Assembly: GCF_003044185.1 (NCBI RefSeq)
Contig: NZ_PYYB01000001.1
Coordinates: 744,001-808,000 of the forward strand
DNA length: 64,000 nt
Reading direction: 5' to 3'
Source of the DNA: Paraconexibacter algicola
Lineage (GTDB): Bacteria; Actinomycetota; Thermoleophilia; Solirubrobacterales; Solirubrobacteraceae
Shown here: positions 26,417 through 57,561 of the stretch, in pieces
Layout of the letters: every line of letters begins with the position of its first letter
Numbering within the stretch: the first letter of the stretch is position 1
Translations under genes and position numbers: made by a program
Notes under the pieces: generated by a model
Told to the model about the DNA's origin: nothing
What the model saw: only the letters and a program-made list of their open reading frames with translations
The model's database searches: none

Positions 26417-26423
26417 GCCCACC

Positions 26424-29605: not shown

Positions 29606-32600
29606 TCATGGCCTCGGGGCGGTACCGGCCGTGGGCACCAGCTCGATTCTAGCCGTCCCGTCGCGCGGGGCCCGGGCGTCGGCGAGGACGCCCCCGCGCA
29701 GCTCCAGCACCCGGTCGAAGCCGTCGAGGCCGGTCGGGTCGTGGGTGACGACCACCAGCGTGCGCCCGCGCGCCGCCCGCCGCGCGTCGGCGAGCACGGT
29801 CGCCGCGGTGGGGTGGTCGAGCATCGCGGTCGGCTCGTCGAGCACGAGGACGTCCGCGCCGCTGAGCAGCGTGCGGGCCAGCGCGATGCGGCGCCGCTGA
29901 CCGCCGGAGACGGCCGATCCGTCCTCCCCGACGAGCGTGTCGAGGCCGTCGGGCAGCGTGGTGAGCCACGCGGCCAGGCCCGCGTCGGCGAGCGCGGCGC
30001 GGACCTCGTCGTCGGTGGCCTGCGGGCGGCCGATCCGGATGTTCGCGGCGATCGTCCCGGCCAGCAGGTGCGCGTCCTGCCCGCCGAGACGCACCCGGTC
30101 GCGCAGCGCCGTGGGGTCGGCGTCGCGCAGGTCGACGCCGCCGAGGCGGACCGTCCCGGCGTCCGGGTCGAGCTGGCGGGTGAGGAGCGCGGCGAGCGTC
30201 GACTTGCCGGTGCCGCTCGGGCCGACGATCGCGACGTGCTCGCCCGGGTCGACGGTGAGGTCGACGCCCCGCAGGACGGCGGGCGTGCCCGGGCCACCCG
30301 GCCGGTGGGTGACCGACCGCAGGCGCAGCGCGGCGGGCCGCGCCGGCAGCGGCCGCGGACGGGCGGGAGCGGGGGTCGCCTGCGGCCCGTCGGTCGCCGC
30401 GGCCAGCCGGCGCTCCGCCGCGCGGACGGCGGCGAGCCGCTCCTCGGCCTCGGGCAGCGCCCGTGTCTCCTCCATCGTCGCGAGCCCGAGCAGGACCAGG
30501 GCGCCGAGCCAGACGGGGTCCAGGCCCGCCGACGACGCGACCGCCAGGACGGCCAGCGTGCCGAGCCCGGCCACCGCTGAGGCGAGCCCCGCGCCCGTGG
30601 CGATCGCGGCGGCGACCTGCCGCTCGGCCCGCGCCACCCGGCCCGCGGCGTCGGCGAGCTCGGCGCGGACGCGCGGCCCGGCGCCCGCGACGGCGAGCTG
30701 CGGGCCGTGCTCGAGCGCCTCGTCGAGCGCGGTCGCGTAGCCGTCGCGCGACCGGCCGGCGCGGTCCAGCGCTGCGCGGACGAGACGCCGCACGAGACCC
30801 GGGACCGCCACCAGCGCCAGCGCGCACGCGGCCAGCAGGACCGCGCCGGCGGTCGGCAGCAGCACCGTCGCGCCCGCGACGCCGAGGACGACCGCGACGG
30901 CCGTCGCCACGCGCGGCACGAGGACGCGCAGGTCGCGGTCCGGCAGGCGGTCGACGTCGGCGGTGAAGCGCGTCAGCGCGTCGCTGGCCCCGGGCCTCCC
31001 GGGCAGGCCGACGCGGTGGGCCAGGCGCTCGAACAAGGTCGCGCGCTCGCGGGAGGCGCGGTGCAGCGCGAGGTCGTGGGAGGCGAGCCGCTCGAAGTAG
31101 CGGGCCAGCGCCCGGGTCGTGCCGAGGGCCCGGACCACGACGATCGCGGTCAGCAGCGCGAGCACCGGCGGGCGCTCCGCCGCCCGGACGATCAGCCAGC
31201 CGGACGTCGCCAGCAGCCCGAGGCCCGCGGCGCTGCCGAGCAGCACGAGCGCGAGCGCCCGGCGGCGGGACGCGGGGCGCGGGACGGCGGGCCCGGGCGA
31301 TGCGGCCGTGGCCTCGGGGACGGGATTGCCGCCGCCCGGGGTGGCCGGCGGCGACGCCGCGTGCCCCGAGGGCACGGCCGGTGTCGCGGGTCGGTCCGGG
31401 GCCGCGGGTGGCGCGACGGCGAGCCGCTGCGCGCAGGCGTCGGCGAGGAGCGGGTCGTGGGTGGCGACCACGAGCGTGCGGCCCTCCGCGGCGGCGACGA
31501 TGCCGCCGACGACGCGGCGGGCCGTGGCCCGGTCCAGGTGCGCGGTCGGCTCGTCCAGCAGCAGCACCGGCGCGCGCGACACGAGCACCGCGGCGAGCGC
31601 GAGCCGCTGCTGCTCGCCGAGGCTCAGCGGTCGGCCGCCACGCCCGACGCGCGTGTCGAGCCCGTCGGGCAGCGTCCGGACGAGGCCGTCCGCCGCCGCG
31701 CGCTCCAGGGCGGTCCAGAGCTCCGCCTCGGGCGCTTCGGGGGCGCGCGTGCGCAGCAGCTCGCGGACGGTGCCCGCGGGCAGGCCGGGCAGCTGGTCGA
31801 GCCAGGCGACGTGCGCCCACCACGCGTCGCGGTCGAGCTCCCGCAGGTCGATCCCCGCGGCACGCACGGTCCCCGCGGCCGGCGCCACCACCCCGGCGAG
31901 CAGCGCCAGCGCCGTCGACTTGCCCGCCCCGGACGGCCCGACGATCGCCAGCGAGCCGCCCGCCGGGACGCGGACGTCGAGCGCCGCGAGACCCTCGCCC
32001 TCGCGGGCGCCGCCGCGGACGGTCGCGCGCTCGAGCGCGAGCGCGGACGGTCCCGCCGGGACGGGCCGGGTGCCGGCGGGGGGCAGCGGGCCGTCGTCGT
32101 CCAGCACCGCGAGCAGCCGCCTGGCCGCCTCCACCCCGTCCTCGGCGGCGTGGAAGCGCGCCCCGGCCGCGCGCAGCGGCGCGTACACCTCGGGGGCCAG
32201 CAGCAGCACGAACAGCCCGATCGCGAGATCCAGCGAGCCGGACGCCAGCAGCACGCCGGTCGTGGCGGCCGCCACGGCGGTACCGAGCATCGCCAGCAGC
32301 TCGAGCACCAGCGCGGACAGCATCGCGACGCGCAGCGCGCCGAGCGACTCGACCCGCAGGCGCTCCCCGACCTGCTCGAGCACCGCGGCCTGCGCGTCGG
32401 CGCGGCCGTGCGCGCGCAACGTCGGCAGGCCGCGCACGACCTCGAAGAAGTGGGCCGACAGCGTCGCGAGCGCGTCCTGCCGCTCGCGCGCGTGGTCGGC
32501 CGAGCGCCGCCCGACGAGGATCAGCAGCAGCACCGCGGCGGGCAGCGTCAGCAGCAGCAGGACGCCGACGACCGGGACGCGGACCGCGATCGCCACGGCC

Positions 32601-33046
32601 ATCGCCAGCGGCACGATGCCCGCCAGCACGGCCTGCGGCAGCGCGCGGGCGAACAGCTCGGCGAGCGCGTCGACCCCCTGCACCGCACCGCCGACGAGCT
32701 CGCCGCGCCGCGCCGACGTCAGTCCGCGACCACTGCCCGCCAGGGCGCGCTCGGCCAGGCCGGCGCGCAGGTCCGCCTGCACACGGGCCGCGGCCGCCCG
32801 GCCCAGCAGCTCACCGGCGGCGACCGACGCGGCCCGCAGCAGCACGAGCCCGGCGAGCACGAGCGCGGCGGACAGGCCGAGCGCCCGGTCGGAGAACGCC
32901 GCCGCGTCGACCGCGTCGGCGACCCCCCAGGCGAGGCCGATCGTCGCCGCGGCGCCCAGGCAGCCCGCCAGCACCGCCCCGACGAGCAGCCGTCGCGCCG
33001 CCGGGGTGCGGCCGAGGAGCAGGCGGCCGATCTCGCGCCCGGTCAT
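29606..33046 (-). CDS. cydDC: Fused CydDC ABC transporter for cytochrome bd assembly
   Basis: A 1146-residue fusion of the two half transporters CydD and CydC, the arrangement known from actinobacteria. Each half has a six-helix membrane domain and an ATPase. First Walker A GPSGAGKST is near residue 370 with signature LSLGEQQRLALA; second GPSGTGKST is near residue 938 with SGGQRRRIALARTLL. A Pro/Ala/Gly-rich linker of about 60 residues joins the halves. CydDC exports thiols such as glutathione or cysteine and is needed to mature cytochrome bd. The start overlaps the end of cydB by 4 nt. Confidence 0.93.
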   Translation of the reverse strand: MTGREIGRLLLGRTPAARRLLVGAVLAGCLGAAATIGLAWGVADAVDAAAFSDRALGLSAALVLAGLVLLRAASVAAGELLGRAAAARVQADLRAGLAERALAGSGRGLTSARRGELVGGAVQGVDALAELFARALPQAVLAGIVPLAMAVAIAVRVPVVGVLLLLTLPAAVLLLILVGRRSADHARERQDALATLSAHFFEVVRGLPTLRAHGRADAQAAVLEQVGERLRVESLGALRVAMLSALVLELLAMLGTAVAAATTGVLLASGSLDLAIGLFVLLLAPEVYAPLRAAGARFHAAEDGVEAARRLLAVLDDDGPLPPAGTRPVPAGPSALALERATVRGGAREGEGLAALDVRVPAGGSLAIVGPSGAGKSTALALLAGVVAPAAGTVRAAGIDLRELDRDAWWAHVAWLDQLPGLPAGTVRELLRTRAPEAPEAELWTALERAAADGLVRTLPDGLDTRVGRGGRPLSLGEQQRLALAAVLVSRAPVLLLDEPTAHLDRATARRVVGGIVAAAEGRTLVVATHDPLLADACAQRLAVAPPAAPDRPATPAVPSGHAASPPATPGGGNPVPEATAASPGPAVPRPASRRRALALVLLGSAAGLGLLATSGWLIVRAAERPPVLALLTAIVVVRALGTTRALARYFERLASHDLALHRASRERATLFERLAHRVGLPGRPGASDALTRFTADVDRLPDRDLRVLVPRVATAVAVVLGVAGATVLLPTAGAVLLAACALALVAVPGLVRRLVRAALDRAGRSRDGYATALDEALEHGPQLAVAGAGPRVRAELADAAGRVARAERQVAAAIATGAGLASAVAGLGTLAVLAVASSAGLDPVWLGALVLLGLATMEETRALPEAEERLAAVRAAERRLAAATDGPQATPAPARPRPLPARPAALRLRSVTHRPGGPGTPAVLRGVDLTVDPGEHVAIVGPSGTGKSTLAALLTRQLDPDAGTVRLGGVDLRDADPTALRDRVRLGGQDAHLLAGTIAANIRIGRPQATDDEVRAALADAGLAAWLTTLPDGLDTLVGEDGSAVSGGQRRRIALARTLLSGADVLVLDEPTAMLDHPTAATVLADARRAARGRTLVVVTHDPTGLDGFDRVLELRGGVLADARAPRDGTARIELVPTAGTAPRP

Positions 33047-34044
33047 CGCAGCCCCTCGAAGAGGCCCTCGCCCAGCCCGCGACGCGGCCCGGTGCTGCGC
33101 CGTCGCCCGGCGAGGTGCAGGACCCAGAGCAGGACGGGCAGCAGCGCGACCGTGATCGCCGTCATCCACGCCAGCGTGTAGCCGCCCGACGCGCTGGTGG
33201 CGAGGTCGACGCCGCCCGCACCGGCGATCACGCGCGAGCCGAGCGCGGCGACGAGCGCGCCGAGCAGCCCGCCGACCGCAACGCCCGCCGCGTGGTGCGC
33301 GACACGGGCCCGGCCCTGCCCGCCCGCGACCGTCAGGGTCGCCAGGGCGGCCCCCGCGACGACGAGCAGGGCGACCGCGAGCGGCCCGGCGGTCACGCCG
33401 TCCGCCGCCCCCTGCGCGACGCCGACCGTCGCGGCGACGCCGAGGACCGCGGCGAGCGGTGCGGCCCAGCGCAGGCGACGGGTCGCGGCGACCGCCAGCG
33501 CCCCGCTGGTGCGGTGCGCCAGCAGCGCGGCGCCCATCGCGTGGCAGAGCGCCAGCAGCGCGAGCCCGGCGAGGACCGCGCTCCACGACAGCACGTCCAC
33601 GCCGCCCCGCGCGAGCGACCCGTCGGCCGCCGCCGCCCACGCCACGCCCCACCCGACCGGCAGGACGGCGGAGCAGGCGATCACCGCGCGCGTCCACCGC
33701 TCCCGGCCGATCGGCGAGTGGTGGTCGGCGAACTCGATCCCCGCGTGCCGCACGATCAGGGCGAGGATCAGCACCACGAGCGGCAGGTACAGGCCTTCGG
33801 TGAAGCCCGCGTACCAGGCCGGGAAGGCGCCGAACATCGCGCCGATCGCGCAGATCAGCCAGACGTCGTTGGCCTGCCAGGTCGGGCCGATCGCCCGCAG
33901 CGCCGCCTGGCGGTTCACCGTGCGGGCGGCGCCGCTGCCCAGGCGCAGCAGCATCGTCACGCCGAGCTCCGCGCCGCCGAGCACGAGGTACAGGGTCCAG
34001 ATGCCCGTCACGAGGACGAGCCAGATGGTCTCCAGGGAGGTCAT
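33043..34044 (-). CDS. cydB: Cytochrome bd ubiquinol oxidase subunit II
   Basis: A 333-residue integral membrane protein with about eight or nine helices. The N-terminal LETIWLVLVTGIWTLYLVLGGAELGVTMLL, the conserved PTWQANDVWLI segment and AMFGAFPAWYA are diagnostic of CydB. It forms the heterodimer with CydA that reduces oxygen to water from quinol without pumping protons. It sits between cydA and cydDC, overlapping cydDC by 4 nt. Confidence 0.95.
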   Translation of the reverse strand: MTSLETIWLVLVTGIWTLYLVLGGAELGVTMLLRLGSGAARTVNRQAALRAIGPTWQANDVWLICAIGAMFGAFPAWYAGFTEGLYLPLVVLILALIVRHAGIEFADHHSPIGRERWTRAVIACSAVLPVGWGVAWAAAADGSLARGGVDVLSWSAVLAGLALLALCHAMGAALLAHRTSGALAVAATRRLRWAAPLAAVLGVAATVGVAQGAADGVTAGPLAVALLVVAGAALATLTVAGGQGRARVAHHAAGVAVGGLLGALVAALGSRVIAGAGGVDLATSASGGYTLAWMTAITVALLPVLLWVLHLAGRRRSTGPRRGLGEGLFEGLR

Positions 34045-34057
34045 CGTCGTGCTCCTC

Positions 34058-35476
34058 TCAGTAGCTCAGGGCCAGCGCCTGGGTCGGCGCGGTCCTCGGG
34101 GTGTCCGGTCCGTCGTGGTCGTCGTCGGCGGCCGGCGGCAGGCCGTGCCCGAGCTCGCGCCGCAGCACGGTCGCGGCGCACGCGAACACGACGCCGTAGA
34201 TCGTCAGGAAGGCGACGAGCGAGATCCCGACCGTCGTCGCCGAGACGGTCGAGAGCGCGTCCTCGGTGCGCAGCAGGCCCTGCACCGCCCAGGGCTGTCG
34301 GCCGCCCTCGCGCAGGATCCAGCCGCCCGCCTGCGCCACCACGGGGATCGCGATCGCCAGCGGCGCCAGCCGCAGGAACAGCGGGGTCGTCGTGAGCTTG
34401 CGGCGGCGCGACAGCAGCGTCGCCCAGGCGAACAGCCCGATCAGCAGCATGCCGCTGCCGACCATCGCGCGGAAGCTCCAGTACATGAGCCCCACGACCG
34501 GTGTGTAGTCCCCGGGCCCGTAGCGGGCCTCCGCCTCCGCCTGCGCCTGGTCGATGCCCTTGACCTCGGCGAGCGGGTCGAACTTCTCCAGGAACGAGAG
34601 CAGGTACGGGATGCGGATGTCGATCACCGGCGGGCCGGGATCGGTGGACAGGCCGCCGATCGCGAAGATCGACAGGCCGGCCCCCTTCTCCGTGGAGTAG
34701 AGCGCCTCGGCGGCCGCCATCTTCAGCGGCTGGCGCTCCATCGCGACGACCGCCTGGAAGTGCCCGGCGCCGGCGGAGCCGAGCGCGAGCAGCAGGCCGA
34801 GGATCGCCGCCGGCCGGGTGACCAGCGCGAACACGTCCGCGTCCCGGCCGCGGGCGATGTGCCAGACCGCGATGCCCAGTACCACGACCGCGCCGGTCAC
34901 CAGCGCGGACAGCAGGACGTGCGACGTGGTGAGGATCGTGTCGACGTTCACGAGCACCGACCACAGGTCGGTGAGCTCGGCGCGCCCGTCCACGATCCGG
35001 TACCCGGTCGGCGCCTGCATCCACGAGTTCGCGACGAGGATCGCGTACGCGGACAGCATCGCCGCGGCGGCCACCACGCCCAGGCAGGCGGCGTGGACCT
35101 TCGGGTTGAGGCGGCCCCAGCCGAAGATCCAGAAGCCGAGGAACAGCGACTCGACGAAGAACGCGGCGAGACCCTCGAGCGCCAGCGGCGCGCCGAACAC
35201 GTCACCGACGTAGCGCGAGAACCCCGCCCAGTTCATGCCGAACTGGAACGTCTGGACGATGCCGGTGACGACGCCGACCGCGAACGCGATGAGCATCGCG
35301 CGCCCGTAGAACTTCGTCAGGCGCAGCCACCGCTCATCACCGGTGCGCAGCCACTGCAGCTGCATGCCGAGCACCGCGCAGACGAGGCCGATCGACACGC
35401 CGACGACGGCGAAGTGCATGAGGGTCGTGAGGCCGAACTGCCAGCGGGCGAGGTCCAGCGAGGTGACGTCGGGCAT
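34058..35476 (-). CDS. cydA: Cytochrome bd ubiquinol oxidase subunit I
   Basis: A 472-residue subunit binding hemes b558, b595 and d. Visible family features are LARWQFGLTTLMHF with the heme ligand His, GVVTGIVQTFQFGMNW, the GRLNPKVHAACL loop, a Q-loop region around LKMAAAEALYSTEKG, and GGWILREGGRQPW. The Q-loop looks short, as in most non-proteobacterial enzymes. The ATG at 35476 begins the family sequence; the longer open frame is antisense to the divergent kinase. A hairpin (35496-35509) lies in its leader. Confidence 0.95.
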   Translation of the reverse strand: MPDVTSLDLARWQFGLTTLMHFAVVGVSIGLVCAVLGMQLQWLRTGDERWLRLTKFYGRAMLIAFAVGVVTGIVQTFQFGMNWAGFSRYVGDVFGAPLALEGLAAFFVESLFLGFWIFGWGRLNPKVHAACLGVVAAAAMLSAYAILVANSWMQAPTGYRIVDGRAELTDLWSVLVNVDTILTTSHVLLSALVTGAVVVLGIAVWHIARGRDADVFALVTRPAAILGLLLALGSAGAGHFQAVVAMERQPLKMAAAEALYSTEKGAGLSIFAIGGLSTDPGPPVIDIRIPYLLSFLEKFDPLAEVKGIDQAQAEAEARYGPGDYTPVVGLMYWSFRAMVGSGMLLIGLFAWATLLSRRRKLTTTPLFLRLAPLAIAIPVVAQAGGWILREGGRQPWAVQGLLRTEDALSTVSATTVGISLVAFLTIYGVVFACAATVLRRELGHGLPPAADDDHDGPDTPRTAPTQALALSY

Positions 35477-37942: not shown

Positions 37943-39184
37943 CTAGAGCGTCGCCTCCTGCTGCGCGACGCGGTCGCCGCTCAGGGCCTGCACGGTGACG
38001 CCGAGCTTGCCCTTCGCCGCGCGCAGCGCCTTGGCGCCGGCGGTCGTGGCCTTCACCGTCACGCGACCGGTCGCGTCCGAGCCGATCGTGCCCGTGCCGC
38101 TGGCGATGACGCGGCTCTTGAGCTTCAGCGCGCGGGCGCGCGTCTCGGTGACGAGCACGCGGACCGTGACGGGCTCGCCGGCGGGGCCGTTGACCGTGGC
38201 GGTCATGCCGTCGTTCGCCATCTCGCTCGCGGTCGGCAGCGACGCGACGGCGACCTGCAGGCGCGTGAGCTTCAGGCGCAGCGCCGTGGCGTCCGCCTTC
38301 GCGCTCGTGGCCGCGGCGTCGCTGGCCGCCGCGCCCTTCTCGGCGGTGACGCGCGCGGCGTCGGCCGCCTTGACCGCCGCCTCGGCGGTGGCGATGCGGC
38401 TTTCCGCCGCCGACTTCGCGGCGATCGCGTCGGCGAGGTCCGCCTCGGCCTTGGCCTTCGCGGCGTCCGCCGCGGTCTTCGCGCCGTTGGCGGTGTCGAG
38501 CGCGCCCTGGAGCGTCAGCTTGTCCGCGTTGAGCTGCCCGATCTGCGTGTTCAGCGGCGCGACGATGTCCGCGGCGTAGCCGGCGTTCAGGCTGGCGGTG
38601 GTCGTCTGGATGGTGTCGGCGGGGTAGAACGTGCCGCCGATCCCCACGCAGGCGGCGCTCAGCTGATCGGTGGTCATGTCCGCGGTCAGCGTCTTGCCGG
38701 TGATCGTGTTGATGCGCGGCAGCCACAGGGCCGGGTCGTCCTCGAGGCCGGCGCTGGTCGCCTGCCACGGGATGTAGCCGTAGAACGGGTCGTTGCCCTG
38801 CCACGAGAGGACGGCGGAGAGCGCGTTGAGCTCCGGCGTGCTGCAGGTGGCGTGCGGCTGCGCGGCGGTGCCGCCCTCCGACAGCCAGCGGGCCTTGTCC
38901 GACGCGAAGCTCGTCCGGTAGGCGGACGGCAGCTTCTTGAAGTCGAGCATGCCGGCGACGCCCGGCCGGTTGTTCGTCTCGCGCAGGACGTACGTGTAGC
39001 CGTGGTTGGTCACGGCGTACCGGGTCTGCGTCAGCAGGTCGTTCTGCGTCGCGTTCGCGGGCAGCGGCGTCGGGGCGACCTTGGCCGTATCGGTGTACAC
39101 GCTGCCGTGCGCGCCGGCGGTGGCCGGGACGGCGAGGGCGGCGGCCGCCACGGCGGCGGACGCGAGGTGCTTCTTGGACTTCAT
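37943..39184 (-). CDS. Secreted coiled-coil protein with predicted N-terminal His
   Basis: A 413-residue exported protein. The signal peptide ends PATAGA, so the mature chain is predicted to begin HGSVYTD (H26). About 170 residues of a Trp/Tyr-rich domain follow with a Cys pair (HATCSTPEL, SAACVGIGG). Then comes a heptad-like Ala/Lys/Ala coiled coil of about 100 residues, and a beta-rich C-terminal domain with TVNGPAGEPVTVRVLV and RVTVKATTAGAKALR. I recognise no family. Its start overlaps the preceding secreted-protein gene (ATGA). The N-terminal His matches the pattern of the copper proteins upstream. Confidence 0.65.
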   Translation of the reverse strand: MKSKKHLASAAVAAAALAVPATAGAHGSVYTDTAKVAPTPLPANATQNDLLTQTRYAVTNHGYTYVLRETNNRPGVAGMLDFKKLPSAYRTSFASDKARWLSEGGTAAQPHATCSTPELNALSAVLSWQGNDPFYGYIPWQATSAGLEDDPALWLPRINTITGKTLTADMTTDQLSAACVGIGGTFYPADTIQTTTASLNAGYAADIVAPLNTQIGQLNADKLTLQGALDTANGAKTAADAAKAKAEADLADAIAAKSAAESRIATAEAAVKAADAARVTAEKGAAASDAAATSAKADATALRLKLTRLQVAVASLPTASEMANDGMTATVNGPAGEPVTVRVLVTETRARALKLKSRVIASGTGTIGSDATGRVTVKATTAGAKALRAAKGKLGVTVQALSGDRVAQQEATL

Positions 39185-40476
39185 CGGATGACTCCCGTGT
39201 TCGATGTGGCCCGCTCGGCGCGGTCGCCGGCGGGGGTGAAGATGGCCTGGTAGCGGCCACGCTTGGGGTTGGCGAGACGGATGCGGAAGCGGCCGCTGGT
39301 CGAGACGGTCGCCCTGCCCGACGGCGTGATCGCCGTCGTCCGCAGCAGCTGGATCCGGCCGGGGAGGCCGGGCTTGACGACACCGGTGACGAGCACCGCG
39401 CCGGAGCGCAGGCGCGTCGTGGTGATGCGCACGAGCGGACGGACGAGCACGCTGCGCGTCTGCGACCCGAACCCGTCGACCACGGCCCGCAGGCCGGTGG
39501 ACTCGGGGATCCGGACCAGGCCGCTGAACGAGCCGTCCGCCGTCGTCACGAGGTTGGGGACCTTCACCCGGGAGACCGTCGACCGGATGGTCACGATCAT
39601 CCCGGCGCGGGCGGGGACCACCCGGCCGCTGATCCGCACGCGCCCGTCGCCGGTGACCCGGGCGGGGGCGGTGAGCTGCACGGCGGTGAGCCCGGCGGTC
39701 CCGGTCCCGAGGCCGCCGGCCGGGCCGGCGGTGCCGCCCGTCCCGTCCGCCCCGGTGCCGGTGCCCGAGCCGGCGCCCGAGCCTGTCCCGGTCCCCGGGG
39801 AGGTCCCACCCCCGGTCCCGGTGCCGGTCCCCGTCCCGCTGCCGCCACCGGTGCCGGCGCCGCCGCCGTTCCCGCCGAAGCAGGACGCGACGACGAGGTC
39901 GGCGCCGTAGGCGGGCTCGGTCGGCGTGATGCCGCCCGGTGCCCGGTCGACGTAGTGGGTGACGCCGGGGGCGTCCTCCCCGTCGGCCGTCAGCACGAAC
40001 GGCTCGGCGATCACGGCACCGCTGACGGCCCCGGTCGCGGCGGGCACGTCGATCGTCATGCTGCCGCCCGGGCCCTGGGTCACCGACCCGGTCGTCGGGC
40101 CGGCCGACACGAACCGCCCGCCGGACCACGTCCCGTGGTCGTAGACGGGCGGCGCGTTGCGCGGGGCGACGCCCCGCACGTAGCGGACGGTCCCGCCGAC
40201 GCGGAAGAGCATCGCGAAGGTCGCCGAGGACGAGTCCTCGTGCGCGGGCTCCCACGCGGCGCTCTTGACCTGGATGACGGCCTGGAGCTGCCCCGCGGTC
40301 TGGCCGAACCAGGCCGCGGTGACGTCGGTGTTGATGTGGTGGCCGTCGCCGGTGGCGTCGGTGATCTGGGCGCTGCCGCCGCACGGGGCGGGCGCCGCCG
40401 CCCCCGCGGAGGCGGGTGCGGCGAGGCCGGCCGCGAGCAGCAGGACAGCCGCAGCGGACGAGCGAGGGATGCTCAC
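39181..40476 (-). CDS. Secreted modular protein with Gly/Thr linker
   Basis: A 431-residue exported protein. Signal peptide about 1-27. An N-terminal domain of about 170 residues begins GGSAQITDATGDGHHINTDV, with a DOMON/CBM9-like look. A Gly/Thr/Ser-rich linker of about 60 residues (GTGTGTGTGGG type) leads to two beta-sandwich modules with ARVTGDGRVRISGRVVPARAG and GAVLVTGVVKPGLPGRIQL. The end shows the RFRIRLANPKRGRY motif of bacterial surface Ig-like repeats. A strong GGAGGGAG precedes the GTG at 40476. It overlaps the next gene. It may bind heme, metal or sugar on the surface; not determined. Confidence 0.65.
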   Translation of the reverse strand: MSIPRSSAAAVLLLAAGLAAPASAGAAAPAPCGGSAQITDATGDGHHINTDVTAAWFGQTAGQLQAVIQVKSAAWEPAHEDSSSATFAMLFRVGGTVRYVRGVAPRNAPPVYDHGTWSGGRFVSAGPTTGSVTQGPGGSMTIDVPAATGAVSGAVIAEPFVLTADGEDAPGVTHYVDRAPGGITPTEPAYGADLVVASCFGGNGGGAGTGGGSGTGTGTGTGGGTSPGTGTGSGAGSGTGTGADGTGGTAGPAGGLGTGTAGLTAVQLTAPARVTGDGRVRISGRVVPARAGMIVTIRSTVSRVKVPNLVTTADGSFSGLVRIPESTGLRAVVDGFGSQTRSVLVRPLVRITTTRLRSGAVLVTGVVKPGLPGRIQLLRTTAITPSGRATVSTSGRFRIRLANPKRGRYQAIFTPAGDRAERATSNTGVIR

Positions 40477-40546
40477 GGGGAGCTCCCTCCTTTCGGATGA
40501 GGATGGACGGATCGGGCGCGGCACCCGGCCGGGCGCCGCGGACGGT

Positions 40547-40888
40547 CTAGGAGGCGACGACGGTCGCGGGCGCCGCGGGAGGCGGACGCACGGCGAGCGC
40601 GGCGGCGATGAGCCGGCCGACACGTCGGAGGTGGACGGCGCGGTACGTCCGCGGGCGGGCGGGGCGCCGTCGGCGCGCGCGCGGCGCGAACCGCGCGCGC
40701 AGGCGGTGCAGCAGCTCCTCCCCGGGCATCGCGCCCGCGAGGAGGGTGCCGAACAGCAGCAGGGTGGGAGCGAGCGCGAGCAGCGCGCCCGGCGCGACCA
40801 CGACCGCGAACGCCGCGAGGGCGGCGAGCAGCACGAGCAGGCCCGTGAGGGCGCGCGTGCGACAGGTCGTGGTCGGGCGGACGCGCAT
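40547..40888 (-). CDS. Small membrane protein, diverged copy of the four-member family
   Basis: A 113-residue protein with two adjoining hydrophobic segments (about residues 13-48), then MPGEELLHRLRARFAPRARRRR and a C-terminal LIAAALAVRPPPAAP. The order (hydrophobic pair, GEE-L-RLR-R, basic run, LA-RPP end) matches the genes at 26710, 46402 and 54822, although the GRYVGEE core has changed to GAMPGEE. It follows the second YcnI gene with a gap of 4 nt, so it is the last gene of the copper operon. Confidence 0.6.
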   Translation of the reverse strand: MRVRPTTTCRTRALTGLLVLLAALAAFAVVVAPGALLALAPTLLLFGTLLAGAMPGEELLHRLRARFAPRARRRRPARPRTYRAVHLRRVGRLIAAALAVRPPPAAPATVVAS

Positions 40889-40892
40889 CGGG

Positions 40893-41579
40893 CTAGGCGG
40901 TGGCGCGGCCCCGGGTGACGGTCACGCCGAGCGCGGCGAGGCCGGCGACGAGTCCGGCGATCGCGAGGCCGAGCGTGAGGCCGTCGCGGCCGCCGTCGTC
41001 CCCGGCGTCGGGCGACGCGGCACCGGCCGCGTCCTGGGTCGTGTCGGCCTCCGGCGCGGCGGCGCCGCCGGTCCCGGCGTCCTGCGAGGCGGCCTGCGCG
41101 CCCTCGCCGCCGGCGTTCTGGCGCGGCGCGTCGGCGGACACCGTGGTCGTGCTGGCGGGCGACTCGCTGCCCTCCGCCCCGATCCAGCGGACGACGTCGC
41201 CGTCGTCGTAGGTCTGGATCGACTTCCACTCGATCGTGCCGGGCGCGTCCGGCGTGGAGGCGAGGAAGCGCAGCGCGACGAGCCCGTCGGCGGCGGCCTC
41301 GCCCTTCCAGGTGACGGTCTCCAGCGCCCCGTTGGAGGCGCGTTGCACGGTGCGCTTCCAGCCGGGCTGGTCCTCGAAGGAGAACGGCAGGACGCCCTCG
41401 GGGATCTGCAGCTTGACCTCGGTGGTGCCGGTGTCGTCGCGCTCGCCGGGGACGAGCACGGTGAACAGGACCGGGTCGGCGGGCGCGACGGTCTTCGGGA
41501 GGACCTCCACGTGCGCGGCGGCCGGCGCCGCGGTGGCGCCGAGCGCGAGCGCGGTCAGGAGCAGCGTGCGTCGGAGCAT
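40893..41579 (-). CDS. YcnI-like copper-binding protein, copy B
   Basis: A 228-residue exported DUF1775/YcnI protein. The signal peptide ends APAAA, leaving H23 as the mature N-terminus (HVEVLP). Family elements are VPGERDDTGTTEVKLQIPEG, QPGWKRTV and the Trp-containing DVVRWIG. YcnI domains bind Cu(II) through the N-terminal His, a Glu and a Trp. An Ala/Gly/Asp-rich linker leads to a C-terminal membrane helix (LTLGLAIAGLVAGLAALGV). It overlaps copC by 1 nt. Confidence 0.9.
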   Translation of the reverse strand: MLRRTLLLTALALGATAAPAAAHVEVLPKTVAPADPVLFTVLVPGERDDTGTTEVKLQIPEGVLPFSFEDQPGWKRTVQRASNGALETVTWKGEAAADGLVALRFLASTPDAPGTIEWKSIQTYDDGDVVRWIGAEGSESPASTTTVSADAPRQNAGGEGAQAASQDAGTGGAAAPEADTTQDAAGAASPDAGDDGGRDGLTLGLAIAGLVAGLAALGVTVTRGRATA

Positions 41580-41941
41580 CAGCGGACGCGGAAGGTCCAG
41601 CTGCCGGTCTCGCGGTGACCGTCGATGTAGGTGGCACGCCAGGTCACCTTGTAGGTGCCCTTCGCGAGGCGCTTGGAGGACTTGCCGATGATGCGCTTGA
41701 CGTTGCGCGGATCGTTCTTGCCGCGCAGCACGGTGCGCGAGCCGCGCGTGACGGTGAAGCTGCCGCCGCTCTTGATCTGCTGCGTGAAGCTGACGTAGAC
41801 CGTCTTCGGGCCGCTGGAGAGGCTCGCGCCCGGCTTGGGCAGGCGCTGGTCGACCTCGGCGTGGCCGAGCGCGGTGGTGGAGAACGTCAGGGCGCCGAGC
41901 GTGCCGAGGACGGCGGCGCGACGGAGGGTCGTGCGGGTCAT
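41579..41941 (-). CDS. copC: CopC-domain periplasmic copper-binding protein
   Basis: A 120-residue exported CopC protein. The signal peptide ends TTALG, leaving H27 as the first mature residue (HAEVDQRLPKPGASL). The fold motifs VYVSFTQQIKSGGSFTV and YKVTWRATYIDGHRETGSWTF are typical, with the DGH histidine completing the Cu(II) site. Compared with classical CopC it lacks a methionine-rich Cu(I) site. The ATG overlaps the end of the VKOR gene. Confidence 0.9.
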   Translation of the reverse strand: MTRTTLRRAAVLGTLGALTFSTTALGHAEVDQRLPKPGASLSSGPKTVYVSFTQQIKSGGSFTVTRGSRTVLRGKNDPRNVKRIIGKSSKRLAKGTYKVTWRATYIDGHRETGSWTFRVR

Positions 41942-42363
41942 GCGGTGGTCTCCTGGGACGGTGCGCGCAGGAAGCGCGTCGTGGTCAGTGCGGCGAGCAG
42001 CGTCATGCAGACGGCGCTCGCGACGCACCACTGGCAGATGGCGTCGATCTCGGCGATCTCGACGTAGGTGAGGTACATGCTGAAGCCGAAGCCGACCCAG
42101 GCGAGGCCGACCGCGGCGAGCAGGCCGGCGTCGCCCGGGACGAGCAGCAGCACCGCGAGGATGCTCACGTAGCCGATCAGGCCGAGCACCGCCACGGGGA
42201 TCCCGGCGAAGGTCGCCCAGTCGGACGCCTGGACCTTCGAGCAGCCGTGCGAGATCCCGCAGGCGGGGTCGATCCCGGCGTAGTGCGCGTACGTGAGGTA
42301 CACGGCGACGCCGAGACCGAGGACCGTGACGGCGAGGGTGGCTGTCCGCAGCCGGTCGCTCAC
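41938..42363 (-). CDS. VKOR-family disulfide-forming membrane protein
   Basis: A 141-residue vitamin K epoxide reductase homologue with four helices. The loop pair C35/C41 (DPACGISHGCSKV) and the active-site CxxC C110/C113 (AICQWCVAS) are both present. Bacterial VKOR reoxidises DsbA-like partners and passes electrons to quinone. The DsbA-like gene directly precedes it and overlaps it (GTGA), which gives the classic oxidative-folding pair. Here it lies within a copper-protein operon. Confidence 0.93.
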   Translation of the reverse strand: MSDRLRTATLAVTVLGLGVAVYLTYAHYAGIDPACGISHGCSKVQASDWATFAGIPVAVLGLIGYVSILAVLLLVPGDAGLLAAVGLAWVGFGFSMYLTYVEIAEIDAICQWCVASAVCMTLLAALTTTRFLRAPSQETTA

Positions 42364-43163
42364 GTGCCCGCGAGCTCCTGGACCTTGTCGCGGATCTGGC
42401 TGCCGTCGAGCGAGCTGAGCTCGAGCTTCTCGAGCTTGCCGCCGGTCTTCCCGATGAGGAAGGACGGGGTGCTGGAGATGCCGTTCTGGTCGGCGAGCTG
42501 CTGGGCCTGGTTGATCGCCTCGGTGCCCGCGGAGCCCTCGCCGTCGGCGATCGCCTTGTCGACGTCGAGGCCGGGGATCCCGCTGAGGGTCGTGCGGACG
42601 AACGCGTCGTCGGCGTAGCCGGAGTTCTCGCGGCCCTGGTTGATGAAGAACAGGTCGAGCGCCTGCCAGAGCTTGCCCTGGGCGCCGGCGCCGGCGACGG
42701 CGCGCGCGAGGGTCTGGCTGTCGTCGCCGATGAACGCCATCGAGCGGAACTCGACGCGCAGCGTGCCGGCGCGGACCTCGCGCTCGACGAGCGTCGGGAG
42801 GCCGTCGCGCGCGAACTCGGCGCAGAACGGGCACTGCATGTCGGCGAACTCGACGAGCGTGACGGGCGCGTCGGCCTGTCCGAGGACGATGCCGGCCTGC
42901 GGGATGCCGGCGAACCGCTGGGTGACCTCGGTCTGCCCGGCGACGGTCTCGCCCGCCTTCTTGGTGGGGCCGTCCTCGGTGCCGCCGGCGCTGATCGCGA
43001 TGAACACGGCGACGATCGCGGCGGCGACGGCGAGCACGCCGCCGAGCTGGGCGAGGCGCCGCTTGCGGGCGGCGGCAGCCTCCGCGGCGGCGGCGGCCGC
43101 GTCCCGCTCGGCGCGACGGGCGGCCTTCTGCTCCGCGCGGGTGACCTTCGGCTCGGTGCTCAT
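42360..43163 (-). CDS. Membrane-anchored DsbA-like thiol oxidase
   Basis: A 267-residue protein. A charged cytosolic N-terminus and one transmembrane helix (residues 37-58) are followed by a DsbA/thioredoxin-like domain with CPFC at 111-114 (FADMQCPFCAEFA) and a cis-Pro loop SSTPSFLIG. It inserts disulfides in exported proteins and should be recycled by the adjacent VKOR. It overlaps both neighbours. Since the copper proteins around it contain few cysteines, the pair may instead control copper redox state or help a partner not seen here. Confidence 0.92.
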   Translation of the reverse strand: MSTEPKVTRAEQKAARRAERDAAAAAAEAAAARKRRLAQLGGVLAVAAAIVAVFIAISAGGTEDGPTKKAGETVAGQTEVTQRFAGIPQAGIVLGQADAPVTLVEFADMQCPFCAEFARDGLPTLVEREVRAGTLRVEFRSMAFIGDDSQTLARAVAGAGAQGKLWQALDLFFINQGRENSGYADDAFVRTTLSGIPGLDVDKAIADGEGSAGTEAINQAQQLADQNGISSTPSFLIGKTGGKLEKLELSSLDGSQIRDKVQELAGT

Positions 43164-43843
43164 GCGCCGCTCCCGGCCCGGCGCGCGGTCGCGAGGCCCG
43201 CGGCACCGACGAGCAGGCCGAGGCCGCCGACGATCAGCGCGGCGATCGCAAGGCCGTCGCCGCCGTCGTCCCCACCACCGGTGGTGGCGGAGGCGAGCGC
43301 GGGCTCGGCCGTGGCGGACTCGGAGGTCTCGGTGCTCTTCGCCTCGCCGTCGTCGTGGTGGCCGCTCGCCCCGTGCTCGTCACCGGTGGCGGCGCCGACC
43401 ATGACGGTCGGGGCCGGCTTGTCGGACGACTCGTCGCCGATCCAGCGGACGGTCTCGCCGTCCTCGTAGGTCTGCAGCGCCTTGAAGGTCAGCGGCCCCT
43501 CGGTGTCGGGAAGCTTGATGCTGATCGGGAAGTCCTGGAACTCGCCCGGGCCGATCCGGGTGTCGCCGGAGGCGGTCCAGGTGATCGTCCTGACCGCGCC
43601 GCCGCTGGTGGCGACCTCCGCCTTCCAGCCGGGCACGGGCTGGGTGCTGGCGGACTCGAAGCCGGCGGGGAACTGGACGACGACCTTCGTGGTGCCCGAG
43701 TCCTCCCTCTCGTTGGGGACGCGGACGTTCTCGACGACGTAGGCGCCGGCGGCGCCCTCGGCGGGCTGGAGGGTGACGTGCGCGGCGGCGACGCCGGGGA
43801 GCGCCAGGACCGCCGCGGCGGTGAGGGTGGTGAGCAGCTTCAT
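43160..43843 (-). CDS. YcnI-like copper-binding protein, copy A
   Basis: A 227-residue exported YcnI protein. The signal peptide ends PGVAAA, leaving H22 first (HVTLQPAEG). The conserved RVPNEREDSGTTKVVVQFP, PGWKAEV and ETVRWIGDESS segments match the family. A His/Glu/Ser-rich linker (DEHGASGHHDDGEA) precedes the C-terminal helix, which is unlike copy B and adds possible metal ligands. It overlaps the CopC-CopD gene by 4 nt. Two YcnI copies in one operon are unusual. Confidence 0.9.
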   Translation of the reverse strand: MKLLTTLTAAAVLALPGVAAAHVTLQPAEGAAGAYVVENVRVPNEREDSGTTKVVVQFPAGFESASTQPVPGWKAEVATSGGAVRTITWTASGDTRIGPGEFQDFPISIKLPDTEGPLTFKALQTYEDGETVRWIGDESSDKPAPTVMVGAATGDEHGASGHHDDGEAKSTETSESATAEPALASATTGGGDDGGDGLAIAALIVGGLGLLVGAAGLATARRAGSGA

Positions 43844-45639
43844 CGGATGGGGACCTTGATCGTGGTGGCGTACTCGTCGAACTCGCTGACGCGGTCGACG
43901 ATCCGGATCTCCCACTCCCCCGCGAGCGTCAGCTGGAACGCGTCGGCGGTGAAGTGGCCGGGACCCGACTTGCGCAGGGCGATGTCGAGCGGGCCGACGT
44001 TCGCGGACTTCAGGGTGGCCTGCGCGGTGATGGACTTGGTGTCGTCGAACGGCTCGCCGGTCTTGGCGTCGAACAGGTAGATGTGCATCGTGTTCGAGCC
44101 GACGGTGGCGGGCTCGACGGTCGTGTTGAGGTCGAGCGGCCCGACGCGCTGCTCGATGTTCACGGCCTTGGGGGTCGTGTACGAGGCGGGCGGCGAGTAG
44201 CCGACGAGCGCGCCGGTGGTGGCGAGCACGGCGACGATGAGGCCGACCTCGGCACGCAGCGTGTTCTTCAGCGTCGTGCCGGCCTGCCCGGGGGTGCCGC
44301 CGGTGGCGGCGATCTCGCGCAGCTTGGGGAGCGTGCGCTGCCGGTTCAGGGCGCCGAGGCCGATCAGCACGAGCAGCAGCAGCGCCTTGACGAGGACGGC
44401 GCGGCCGAAGCCGGTGTCGAGCAGCTGGGAGAAGCTCGTGAGGTGGAGGACCGCCTGCACGGTGCCGGTGACGGCGAGCACGGCGACGGCGGCGAGCGCG
44501 ACCGGGGAGAAGCGCAGCAGCACGGCGGAGAGGAGCCGGGCGCGGTCCCCGCCGTCGAGCTTGCCGGTGGCGGCGGGGACGAGCGCGACGAGCGCGATCA
44601 GGCCGCCGAGCCAGAGGCTCATCGCGGCCACGTGCGCGACGTCGGTCGGGAGCAGCACCGCGACCGGGTCGCTCGTCCCGGCGTGGCCGGAGAGCGCGGG
44701 GGCGAAGGCGAGCGCGGTGACGGGCGCGACGAGCAGCGCGAGCCGCAGCCCGCCGGGACGGTCGAGCACGCGACCGTCGGCACCGAGCGACACGGGGCGC
44801 AGGACGGGCACGGTCCGCGGGGTGACGAGCAGGACGCCGCCGAGGATCAGCCAGACGACGAGCTTCAGGCCCCAGACGGTGCCGAAGCGCGTGTCGAGGA
44901 CCTCGCGGACGGTGGAGGCCTGCAGCGCGTCGAAGAACCCCTGACCGGAGACGATCGACCCCTGGATGAGGATGCCGAGCAGCGCGGTGGCGAGCCCGAG
45001 GTTCACGGCGCCGAGCAGCATCGTGCTGCCGCGCTTGGCGTACGCCTCGCTGGCCGCGGCCCAGCGCTCGTCCCCGCCCGCGACGCCGCGCAGCCCCGGG
45101 AGCCAGCAGAGCAGCAGGAAGCCGACGCCGCCGAGCGCGAGCGCGATCGCGAGGTAGTCGAGCGCCTTCACCGCGGCGAAGACGGTGGTCGTGGTCGCTC
45201 CCGCGGAGGTGCCCTCGACGAGGTCGGCGACCGCGAGGGCCCCGGACTTCGACGGCTCGCCGAGGTGGAAGACGAAGCCGCCGTTGATCACGTGGCCGTC
45301 GGCGGACACGAGCCGGTAGGTGGCCGTGTAGGAGCCCTTCGCGAGGCCGGGCTTGAGCTTGACCCCGATCTTCTTGGTGTCACCGCCGGGCCGCAGGATC
45401 TCCTGCTCGTCGACGCGCTTGGCGCTGGTGTCGAAGACGCGGACCGCGCCGAAGGACGCCTCGACGGGCTCGTTGAAGCGGAAGACGACCTCGGACGGCT
45501 GCCCGTCCTTGAAGACCTCGTCGCGGAACGGCTGGTTGCCGACGAGGAAGGCGTGGGCGGACGCCCCGGCGGGCGCGAGCGCGAGGAACGCGACGAGCGC
45601 GACGCCCGCGAGGGCGAGGATGCGGCGCAGATGGCTCAC
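43840..45639 (-). CDS. CopC-CopD fusion copper transport protein
   Basis: A 599-residue membrane protein. The signal peptide ends GASA, leaving H29 first (HAFLVGNQPF). A CopC domain (EVVFRFNEPVEASFGAVRVFD, SADGHVINGGFVFHLG) leads into about eight membrane helices of the CopD domain. A C-terminal external domain of about 120 residues resembles the FixG/YtkA-like module. The fusion, as in YcnJ, imports copper across the membrane. The GTG start overlaps the previous gene's stop. Confidence 0.92.
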   Translation of the reverse strand: MSHLRRILALAGVALVAFLALAPAGASAHAFLVGNQPFRDEVFKDGQPSEVVFRFNEPVEASFGAVRVFDTSAKRVDEQEILRPGGDTKKIGVKLKPGLAKGSYTATYRLVSADGHVINGGFVFHLGEPSKSGALAVADLVEGTSAGATTTTVFAAVKALDYLAIALALGGVGFLLLCWLPGLRGVAGGDERWAAASEAYAKRGSTMLLGAVNLGLATALLGILIQGSIVSGQGFFDALQASTVREVLDTRFGTVWGLKLVVWLILGGVLLVTPRTVPVLRPVSLGADGRVLDRPGGLRLALLVAPVTALAFAPALSGHAGTSDPVAVLLPTDVAHVAAMSLWLGGLIALVALVPAATGKLDGGDRARLLSAVLLRFSPVALAAVAVLAVTGTVQAVLHLTSFSQLLDTGFGRAVLVKALLLLVLIGLGALNRQRTLPKLREIAATGGTPGQAGTTLKNTLRAEVGLIVAVLATTGALVGYSPPASYTTPKAVNIEQRVGPLDLNTTVEPATVGSNTMHIYLFDAKTGEPFDDTKSITAQATLKSANVGPLDIALRKSGPGHFTADAFQLTLAGEWEIRIVDRVSEFDEYATTIKVPIR

Positions 45640-46316
45640 CAGGACTCCTTCGCGGGCGCGGCGGCGCCGTCCTGCTCCTCGGCGGCGCGCCGGCGCCGGA
45701 CCGTGACGACGAAGACGCCGCTGAGCGCCAGCAGCACGACGAACGCGGCGATCGCGGCGGTCGGCGCGCCCCCGTCGTCAGTGGGGGTCCAGTTGAGGAC
45801 GCCCGCGATGGTGGCGGGCTGCCCGGCGACCTGGAGGTCGACGGTCCAGTCGAAGACCTTCGTCTTGACGGCCGTGTCCTTCACCTGCGGCGGGGTGCCA
45901 CCGCCCATCCAGTGGATGCGGTGGTCGTGCCAGGCGAAGCGGCCGGTCTTGTCGAGGACCTTCCAGCGCGGCTCGGCCTTCGGGTCGACGCCCGCGGGGA
46001 CGGGCACGTTGCCGTCGCGCTCCTCGTTGATGTACGTCGACTTGGAGTTCTCGTTCACCGCCACGGTCCCGTCGGCGTCGATGCGCGCGTACGGCTCGTC
46101 CTCGTAGCCGAGCACGACGATGTCGCGGTCGCTGCGGTTCGTCAGCTCGAGGCTGTCCTCGCGGTTGAGGATCTGCGTCGTGACGCCCGTGGGCAGACCG
46201 GTCGAGCCGGTGATGAGGGACTGGTAGTTGGGGTCGCCCTTGTGGGCGGCGGCGGTGGACACGCAGGCCGCGAGGGCGGCGAGCGCGACCACGACGATGG
46301 TGCGGACGCGGTTCAT
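45636..46316 (-). CDS. Exported membrane-anchored protein of the copper operon, N-terminal His
   Basis: A 226-residue protein, first gene of the operon. The signal peptide ends STAAA, leaving H25 first (HKGDPNYQS). A beta-rich external domain holds FAWHDHRIHWMGGGTPP, a His cluster likely to bind metal, and a C-terminal helix (AAIAAFVVLLALSGVFVV) anchors it. Such proteins are found near CopCD in actinobacteria without an established function. Its mature N-terminus suits a copper role shared with the four copper-binding proteins downstream. Confidence 0.72.
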   Translation of the reverse strand: MNRVRTIVVVALAALAACVSTAAAHKGDPNYQSLITGSTGLPTGVTTQILNREDSLELTNRSDRDIVVLGYEDEPYARIDADGTVAVNENSKSTYINEERDGNVPVPAGVDPKAEPRWKVLDKTGRFAWHDHRIHWMGGGTPPQVKDTAVKTKVFDWTVDLQVAGQPATIAGVLNWTPTDDGGAPTAAIAAFVVLLALSGVFVVTVRRRRAAEEQDGAAAPAKESW

Positions 46317-46401: not shown

Positions 46402-46731
46402 CTAGCGGGCGGGCGCGAGCGCGGGCGGTCCGCGCTCGGCGAGCGCGGACGCGACGAGCCGCCCGCGGCGGGCGAACGCCCGCGGGGCGCGCGGCAGGCG
46501 CGCGGTGAGCCGGAGTGCGGCGCGGCGACGAGCCGGCGCGAACGCGGCGACGACGGCCGCGAGGCGCTTCTCCCCGAGGTAACGACCCGCCAGCAGCGGG
46601 AGCAGCAGCACGAGGACGGGCGCCAGCTCCAGGAGCCAGCTGTCGATTCCCCCGACGGTGGTGAGCAGCGCTGCGAGCACGCCGACGGCGGCCACGAGGG
46701 CGACCGGCAGGAGGTCTCGGCGCTGCGTCAT
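46402..46731 (-). CDS. Small membrane protein, copy 3 of the four-member family
   Basis: A 109-residue protein. A hydrophobic double segment (about residues 7-48, LLPVALVAAV and LAPVLVLLLPLLAG) leads into GRYLGEKRLAAVVAAFAPARRR and a C-terminal SALAERGPPALA. It is clearly related to the genes at 26710 and 54822. The ATG at 46731 has TACCCT 7 nt upstream. It lies 85 nt upstream of the copper operon's first gene on the same strand and may be transcribed into it. Confidence 0.66.
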   Translation of the reverse strand: MTQRRDLLPVALVAAVGVLAALLTTVGGIDSWLLELAPVLVLLLPLLAGRYLGEKRLAAVVAAFAPARRRAALRLTARLPRAPRAFARRGRLVASALAERGPPALAPAR

Positions 46732-55864: not shown

Positions 55865-56794
55865 ATGACGCCTCGACGCCTGCTGCTGCTCGCCCTCGTC
55901 GCGCTCGCCCTGCCCGGCTGCTCCTCCAGCGCGCAGAGCGGTGACATCGCCGACCGCAAGGTCCGCGTCACCACCACCACGAACTTCATCACCGACACGG
56001 TCCGCCAGATCGGCGGCGACCGGGTCGCGGTCACCGGCCTGATGGGCCCGGGCGTGGACCCGCACCTCTACAAGGCCAGCGCCGGCGACGTGCGGACGCT
56101 CCGCGACGCCGACGTGATCGCCTACGGCGGCCTCGAGCTCGAGGGCAAGATGGCCGACCTGCTCGACGAGCTCGCCGAGCGCCAGACCACGGTGGCGGTC
56201 ACGAAGGACATCCCGCGCGGCCGGCTGCTCGAGCCGCCGGGTGACGCCGCCGAGCAGGTCGACCCGCACGTGTGGTTCGACGCGACGAACTGGATGATCG
56301 TCGCGCGCACGATCGCCGCCACGCTGAAGGAGAAGGACCCCGGCAGCGCGGCGCTCTACGACCGCAACCTCGCCGCCTACGAGCGCGAGCTGCAGCAGAC
56401 CGACCGCTACGTGCAGCGGCGCATCGCGAGCATCCCCCGGGAGCGGCGGATCCTCGTCACCTCGCACGACGCGTTCGCGTACTTCGGCCGCCGCTACGGC
56501 CTCGAGGTCGCCGCGATCCAGGGCATCTCCACCGCCGCCGAGGCCACCACCGGGGACGTCCAGCGCGTCGCCCGGCTGATCGCCGACCGCGACGTCCCCG
56601 CCGTGTTCGTCGAGTCGAGCGTGCCGCGGCAGACCATCGACGCGGTCCTCGCCGCCGCCAGACGCCTCGGCGCCGACGCGCGGGTCGGCACCGAGCTGTT
56701 CACCGACGCCGCCGGCGACGACGGCACCCCCGAGGGCACCTACGTCGGGATGCTGCGCGCCAACGCCGACCGGATCGCGCAGGGCCTGCGATGA
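55865..56794 (+). CDS. Manganese/zinc-type substrate-binding lipoprotein
   Basis: A 309-residue cluster A-I binding protein. The lipobox is ALPGC (C19). Metal-site motifs are GVDPHLYKAS, QVDPHVWFD, TSHDAFAYFGRRYGL and VFVESSVP. It lacks the His/Glu-rich loop of the zinc protein at 18504, which favours manganese or iron. The stop overlaps the ATPase gene by 4 nt. First gene of a four-gene operon. Confidence 0.92.
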   Translation: MTPRRLLLLALVALALPGCSSSAQSGDIADRKVRVTTTTNFITDTVRQIGGDRVAVTGLMGPGVDPHLYKASAGDVRTLRDADVIAYGGLELEGKMADLLDELAERQTTVAVTKDIPRGRLLEPPGDAAEQVDPHVWFDATNWMIVARTIAATLKEKDPGSAALYDRNLAAYERELQQTDRYVQRRIASIPRERRILVTSHDAFAYFGRRYGLEVAAIQGISTAAEATTGDVQRVARLIADRDVPAVFVESSVPRQTIDAVLAAARRLGADARVGTELFTDAAGDDGTPEGTYVGMLRANADRIAQGLR

Positions 56795-57561
56795 GCGACA
56801 CGAGCGACCGCCGCGCCGCCGCGCTCGAGCTGCGCCGCCTGACCGTCTCCTACGCCTCGCGGCCCGTCCTGTGGGACGTCGACGTGGCGTTCCCCGCCGG
56901 GGCGCTCAGCGCGATCGTCGGCCCGAACGGCGCCGGCAAGTCGACGCTGCTGAAGGCGGCGCTCGGGCTGATCCCCGCCGACGCCGGGCAGACGCTCGTC
57001 GACGGGCTGCCGATCGCCCGGGCCCGTGACCGCGTCGCCTACGTCCCGCAGCGCGACGCCGTCGACTGGGACTTCCCGATCACCGTCCGCGAGGTGGTCG
57101 AGATGGGCCGCTACGCGTCGACCGGGTGGCTGCGCCGCGTGGCCCGGCGCGAGACGCCGCTGATCGACGACTGCCTCGACCGCGTCGGCATGCGCGCCTA
57201 CGCCGACCGCCAGATCGGCGCGCTCTCCGGCGGCCAGCGCCAGCGGGTGTTCATCGCCCGGGCACTCGCGCAGCAGACCCCGGTAATGCTGATGGACGAG
57301 CCCTTCGCCGGGGTCGACGCGCGGACCGAGGCGAGCATCCTGCGCCTGCTGCGGGAGCTGCGCGACGACGGCCGCTCGATCGTCGTCGTGCACCACGACC
57401 TCGGCACCGTGCGGGCGAGCTTCGACTTCGCGTTGCTCCTGAACGTGCGGGCGATCGCCGCCGGGCCGGTCGCGCAGGCGCTGACCGACGAGCAGCTCGC
57501 GCGCGCCTACGGCGCGGCCGCGGTCACCGACGGGGAGCAGGACGCGTCGTGGGTCCGCTGA
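56791..57561 (+). CDS. Metal ABC transporter ATPase
   Basis: A 256-residue ATPase with Walker A GPNGAGKST, Q-loop YVPQRDAVDWDFP (the latter typical of metal-ion transporters), signature LSGGQRQRVFIARALAQ, Walker B MLMDEPFAGVD and H-loop VVVHHDL. It energises import through the two permeases that follow. It overlaps the first permease gene by 13 nt. Confidence 0.94.
   Translation: MSDTSDRRAAALELRRLTVSYASRPVLWDVDVAFPAGALSAIVGPNGAGKSTLLKAALGLIPADAGQTLVDGLPIARARDRVAYVPQRDAVDWDFPITVREVVEMGRYASTGWLRRVARRETPLIDDCLDRVGMRAYADRQIGALSGGQRQRVFIARALAQQTPVMLMDEPFAGVDARTEASILRLLRELRDDGRSIVVVHHDLGTVRASFDFALLLNVRAIAAGPVAQALTDEQLARAYGAAAVTDGEQDASWVR

Follow-up and report, generated by a model that had tools for sequence, protein, structure and literature searches.

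Gene content and known copper proteins

We analysed a 64,000-nucleotide stretch of Paraconexibacter algicola contig NZ_PYYB01000001.1 (positions 744,001 to 808,000; hereafter the window, whose numbering is used throughout), part of a high-GC actinobacterial genome of 4.7 Mb whose nearest named relatives in our scans were Solirubrobacterales. The subject is a tight minus-strand operon, running from approximately 46731 to 37943, that encodes recognisable copper proteins together with two exported proteins, g45636 and g37943, which on the basis of their sequences are credible candidate copper-binding proteins. In order of transcription, the genes are g46402 (46402–46731), a small membrane protein 85 bp upstream of g45636; g45636 (45636–46316); CopCD (43840–45639); YcnI1 (43160–43843); a membrane-anchored DsbA-like thioredoxin with a CPFC motif (42360–43163); a VKOR-family disulfide reoxidase assigned by Pfam (41938–42363); CopC (41579–41941); YcnI2 (40893–41579); g40547 (40547–40888), a small membrane protein belonging to no family; g39181 (39181–40476) and g37943 (37943–39184). 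Most adjoining genes overlap by 4 bp, and the two widest gaps measure 85 and 70 bases. Pfam matches in the operon comprised CopC (twice), CopD, DUF1775 (twice), VKOR and DSBA/thioredoxin; the four of the five unnamed proteins that were scanned (g45636, g39181, g37943 and g40547) matched no Pfam or NCBIfam family above cut-off. No sigma-70-like promoter was found, and the number of terminator-like sites was not above chance.

The four named copper proteins carry the expected residues. A D-x-H motif, the pattern of CopC Cu(II) sites, is present in both CopC domains (D81-x-H83 in CopC and D86-x-H88 in CopCD), each of which is predicted to mature with histidine as its first residue (His1). Both YcnI proteins, which are DUF1775 members with His1 and a C-terminal transmembrane (TM) anchor, have Glu exactly 23 residues past His1 and Trp at +112 (YcnI1) or +109 (YcnI2); in Bacillus subtilis YcnI, the copper site comprises His27 and Glu50, and Trp137 lies at +110 (PMC8424229). 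Judged from these residues, the full predicted Cu(II) ligand sets are intact in CopC, CopCD, YcnI1 and YcnI2. CopCD continues from its CopC domain into a CopD membrane domain and a C-terminal tail that matched YtkA (E = 4e-4) and FixH (E = 2e-4), both below the curated cut-off; since this tail resembles YtkA/FixH, the layout of CopCD appears to correspond to that of B. subtilis YcnJ. As expected of a YcnJ/YcnI-type operon, the locus has a CopC-CopD protein whose extracellular CopC head bears His1 and D-x-H, and next to it a DUF1775 protein with His1, Glu at +23, Trp near +110 and, on inspection of its sequence, a C-terminal TM anchor.

Histidine directly after the signal-peptide site

We then examined the predicted signal-peptide sites of six proteins for which a preliminary description had proposed a mature N-terminal histidine. 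In 6/6 the signal peptidase I (SPase I) consensus (A-x-A/A-x-G) stands directly before His, with predicted cuts at AGA|HGSV (g37943), AAA|HVEV (YcnI2), ALG|HAEV (CopC), AAA|HVTL (YcnI1), ASA|HAFL (CopCD) and AAA|HKGD (g45636). All six genes lie on the minus strand where that description had placed them, with corrected starts, and its assignment of four of them to CopC, CopCD and YcnI is correct. Its statement that all exported proteins of the run share the histidine held for these six and failed for the exported g39181; DsbA and the two small membrane proteins are also without His1.

Against a background sample of 40 stretches of 20 kb (0.8 Mb) from the same genome, in which His followed the consensus site in 3 of the 189 proteins that combined such a site with an N-terminus resembling a signal peptide, and a published base rate of 2.6% for His at +1 (PMC12537917), the chance probability for six of nine proteins was approximately 1e-9 to 2e-8, a post hoc value in which the four known genes are not independent because CopC and YcnI have His1 by family. 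For two of the five non-CopC/YcnI proteins, the corresponding post hoc probability was 0.002–0.006. A simple scorer returning one best cut per protein, which ignored position +1 except for proline, chose the His site in 2/6, mostly upstream sites for the others and none for CopC; it misses the His site because Ala-rich tails carry several sites 2–3 residues upstream. We judged this scorer too coarse for such tails and replaced it with a full listing of consensus sites combined with homologue comparison. Cleavage at His appears probable in g45636 and g37943, because the A-x-A|H pattern is kept in their homologues. Among 76 g45636 relatives, Ala occurs at −1 in 71/76 and at −3 in 72/76, and the last 14 positions are free of charged residues in 71/76; these figures describe rather than test the cut, as the relatives were selected for a consensus site followed by His. 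We also considered a general rule that other exported proteins of such loci have His1, and set it aside as weakly supported: further His1 proteins were found in 8/75 near such loci vs 9/247 (P = 0.03), in part owing to one extra family.

The g45636 family

The product of g45636 is an exported, C-terminally membrane-anchored protein with a 24-residue signal peptide (46245–46316, ending ...STAAA|H) and the predicted mature N-terminus HKGDPNYQS. Its AlphaFold model is confident (predicted local distance difference test, pLDDT, 93.5) and consists of a beta-sandwich and one C-terminal (TM) helix. Among homologues picked without use of any internal motif, His1 is kept in approximately 40/57, and it is retained down to approximately 30% identity (30–50% range). 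A second conserved motif, (W/F)HDHRxHWM, is present here as WHDHRIHWM (mature residues 105–113; codons 45906–45932); H106, D107, H108, H111 and M113 are 95–99% conserved in an alignment partly selected by this motif. Apart from His1, conservation among the candidate ligands is highest for Glu50, His106, Asp107, His108, His111 and Met113. His1 and the motif lie 100–110 residues apart in most members, an almost fixed sequence spacing.

His1 has been lost in the family at least two times; a tree computed after removal of the first ten residues required approximately four changes (its row L219 being mislabelled by the pattern). In the principal case, a whole clade has ADPAGP, with Asp, in place of AH. 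This sequence or a close variant occurs in L218, L220, L222, L224–L228, L230 and L232, which keep WHDHRxH and provide naturally occurring variants without the terminal His that can serve for comparison. Some distant relatives have an extra C-terminal region instead of the single TM tail (L065, L066, L067, L068, L172, L184, L189–L191 and L196–L203); it reads as multi-pass membrane sequence in L065–L068 and has no Pfam name where scanned.

Several candidate relationships of g45636 were rejected. Profile matches in the PDB (designed beta-trefoils and ribosomal eL39) appear to reflect repeats or composition, not kinship; Foldseek and VIA-align matches, including subunit B of particulate methane monooxygenase/ammonia monooxygenase (pMMO/AMO), were too weak to use; and membership of CopC or DUF1775 was dismissed, there being no Pfam match and no hhalign similarity beyond the TM tail.

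We found g45636 in 36/199 genomes of the class and 47/346 of the phylum, and one scan of the GTDB collection gave 442 confirmed places for its motif; Solirubrobacter, Conexibacter, Patulibacter, Geodermatophilus and Blastococcus are among the named hosts. Of 72 loci, 53 have a CopCD-like gene no more than three genes away from g45636 and on its strand. The usual order is g45636-CopCD-YcnI, at times followed by DsbA and VKOR; in Geodermatophilaceae it is CopCD-YcnI-SCO1-g45636, and the Conexibacter run includes CtaG. SCO1 and CtaG, both copper-assembly proteins of oxidases, are thus among its neighbours elsewhere. With shared descent ignored, genomes with g45636 more commonly contain DUF1775 (27/36 vs 61/163, P = 4e-5) and CopD (30/36 vs 94/163, P = 0.003) than those without it.

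g37943 and g39181

The second candidate, g37943, is an exported protein with the predicted mature start HGSVY, a coiled-coil and a C-terminal beta domain, and it belongs to no family. It is rare, any match (some partial) being found in 7/199 genomes. Among its nine relatives, counting the present protein, an H[PG][SA][VI][YW] start follows the signal peptide in 9/9, and His86, Cys89 and Cys154 (mature numbering) are invariant. Several of these relatives stand beside CopC, YcnI or CopCD, and most adjoin g39181. Foldseek matches of the g37943 model, among them a fungal X325 copper protein and a lytic polysaccharide monooxygenase (LPMO), had E above 0.003 and seemingly reflected a generic beta domain; we set them aside. 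Overall, g37943 is a weaker copper-protein candidate than g45636.

The exported g39181, which is without His1, has a conserved GDGHHxNTDV near its N-terminus and two Cys; it is co-transcribed with g37943, and the two genes form a pair in other places as well. At L143:6768-9092 the two form one 774-residue open frame, probably through a frameshift near the junction.

Further features of the window and of related loci

The small membrane proteins g40547 and g46402 are alike in layout (a hydrophobic stretch, then a GEE/GEK-type motif), and each stands ahead of His1 or partner genes; pairwise BLASTP between them gave no significant match. Homologues of g46402 sit ahead of g45636 in several loci, and those of g40547 ahead of g39181 in related loci.

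In several genomes, a multi-pass membrane protein of approximately 470 residues, with the predicted N-terminus HG[LI]VG[RK]xDLP[IL]PxWLF, adjoins or lies near CopCD, YcnI or g45636 (L047:2100-3530, L048:5192-6604, L134:13573-14985, L157:6583-8010, L180:8380-9816 and L173:7463-8905). This further His1 candidate, which was not seen in the window, has no Pfam family where scanned, and a literature search under a candidate name gave no match.

Near the copper operon, 29606–35476 encodes CydA and CydB (cytochrome bd oxidase) and a CydDC-type ATP-binding cassette (ABC) transporter gene; that a copper-independent oxidase is encoded close to a copper-uptake locus may point to joint regulation when copper is limiting. 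The window is rich in metal-handling genes, and also encodes two CobW-family GTPases side by side and a metal ABC transporter of ZnuA type (23982–26425 and 55865–59704).

Proposed function and alternatives

On balance, we think this is probably an actinobacterial ycnJ-ycnI-type copper-acquisition operon enlarged by further Cu(II) relay proteins at the outer face, of which one or more would belong to a new family. Work on B. subtilis shows one Cu(II) bound by YcnI and one by the CopC head of YcnJ, with exchange between the two (PMC12362106), and YcnJ supports respiration and heme-copper oxidases under copper limitation (PMC13344008); COX2 and SCO1 genes, which would need copper, occur in the present genome. 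By this scheme, the CopC head of CopCD, the YcnJ homologue, would bind Cu(II) via His1 and D-x-H, and is thought to hand copper to the CopD membrane domain. Held at the membrane by its C-terminal helix like YcnI, g45636 would hold or relay Cu(II) at the outer face. The His at its free N-terminus would chelate the ion through amine and imidazole, perhaps in a histidine-brace geometry, and probably aided by the His/Asp/Met cluster of HDHRxHWM. A second, rarer carrier may be g37943, acting via His1 and perhaps His86, and the DsbA-VKOR pair may form the disulfides expected in g37943 and g39181. More speculatively, and with considerable doubt, g45636 might constitute a new Actinomycetota-wide class of membrane-anchored copper protein in which His1 and the HDHRxHWM loop form one composite site, possibly for both Cu(II) and Cu(I), readying copper for the CopD channel.

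Several observations weigh against the relay proposal. CopCD is lacking nearby in 19/72 g45636 loci (some contigs end early), and in genome G035, where g45636 is present, CopD and DUF1775 were undetected. Besides the ADPAGP clade, L050, L057, L059, L175 and L180 are also without His1, some of them still beside CopCD; His1 is therefore not essential to every g45636 member. Additional His1 proteins were not strongly enriched in general around such loci; no solved relative of g45636 is recognisable by sequence or fold, and none supplies a metal site; hhalign comparison with local DUF1775 and CopC alignments returned the TM tail only or nothing; and the g37943 model is poor at its N-terminus (pLDDT approximately 50, vs 73 overall). 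Finally, the internal HDHRxHWM, as conserved as His1, may be the real metal site of g45636.

This last point leads to the alternative that survives best, which we regard as possible though unlikely: g45636 would be a metal protein, probably for copper, whose working site is HDHRxHWM, with His1 as an accessory that was dropped in some lineages. His/Met-rich clusters are common in copper proteins, the five candidate ligands of the motif are nearly invariant, and the motif is kept in the clade with Asp for His1. However, 80 of the loci were retrieved by searching for HDHRxHWM, which accounts for part of its conservation, and in L060, L061 and L077, which were found without it, the motif is eroded (WFDRR/WFDKR) whereas His1 is kept.

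We consider it quite improbable that g45636 and g37943 bind another metal (nickel, zinc or cobalt), or bind metal only weakly and act as structural partners of CopCD, with a His terminus that stems from descent or context and not from copper. A nickel protein, DUF4198, came out of the same His1 reasoning (PMC12537917), and some g45636 loci have no copper genes nearby; the strong CopCD/YcnI linkage and the SCO1 and CtaG neighbours argue the other way. Least probable by far is a meaningless coincidence of His after an Ala-rich signal peptide in both proteins, which could draw on the only modest post hoc probability for two of five and on the alternative A-x-A sites just upstream, but is largely refuted because the His is conserved across homologues, standing directly after the consensus in most g45636 homologues, to approximately 30% identity, and in 9/9 of the g37943 family.

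The candidacy of both proteins had been put forward in the preliminary description, which proposed a search for their homologues in CopCD/YcnI loci and held that homologues without the His would count against it. Homologues of both do occur in such loci, as the neighbourhoods above indicate, and most of the tests it named were passed, but we regard the proposal as partly supported; the His is absent from part of the g45636 family, namely the ADPAGP clade and a few CopCD-side relatives, and is fully kept in that of g37943.

Relation to known systems

Bacterial copper uptake from outside is poorly known, and Cu(II) exchange between YcnI and YcnJ is a recent model. If our proposal is true, g45636 is an unrecognised component of the copper pathway of Actinomycetota, occurring in hundreds of genomes and listed in neither Pfam nor NCBIfam, and the combination of N-terminal His with gene neighbourhood gains support as a way to find metalloproteins from sequence alone; should g45636 prove not to be a copper protein, the operon would be an ordinary representative of an established kind. 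The operon type itself is already known. As far as the libraries and open-access papers that we searched extend, what is new is the g45636 family as a regular CopCD/YcnI partner in Actinomycetota, together with the small g37943 family.

Among the closest known systems is B. subtilis ycnKJI, in which YcnJ is CopC-CopD-YtkA and YcnI is DUF1775. It resembles the present operon in the CopCD protein, whose tail here resembles YtkA below cut-off, in the anchored YcnI with His1 and Glu at +23, and in gene adjacency; here, by contrast, there are two YcnI proteins, a separate CopC, DsbA, VKOR and five unnamed proteins, and we identified no YcnK-type regulator. CopC (PF04234) and g45636 are both exported and beta-rich with an N-terminal His (predicted in g45636) and a CopD partner, yet share no profile similarity, and g45636 has no Pfam match. 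Structural comparison of g45636 with the C-terminal beta domain of pMMO/AMO subunit B gave Z of approximately 3.7–3.9, far below a meaningful level, and no sequence similarity was found.

The use of an N-terminal His as a marker of metalloproteins dates from a 2025 publication, in which, under the name signal-strapping, it predicted real metal sites from sequence in four families, DUF4198, DUF6702, Ang-1 and Ang-2 (PMC12537917). These families have in common with g45636 a His1 after cleavage (predicted in g45636), a beta-sandwich, a frequent membrane part and proposed metal capture on the outside. Both g45636 and g37943 differ from them in matching no Pfam or NCBIfam family, the separation from Ang-1 and Ang-2 being drawn without direct sequence comparison; furthermore, g45636 is a neighbour of CopCD and carries a single TM helix, or in some relatives an additional C-terminal region, rather than a Pfam-named HupE permease.

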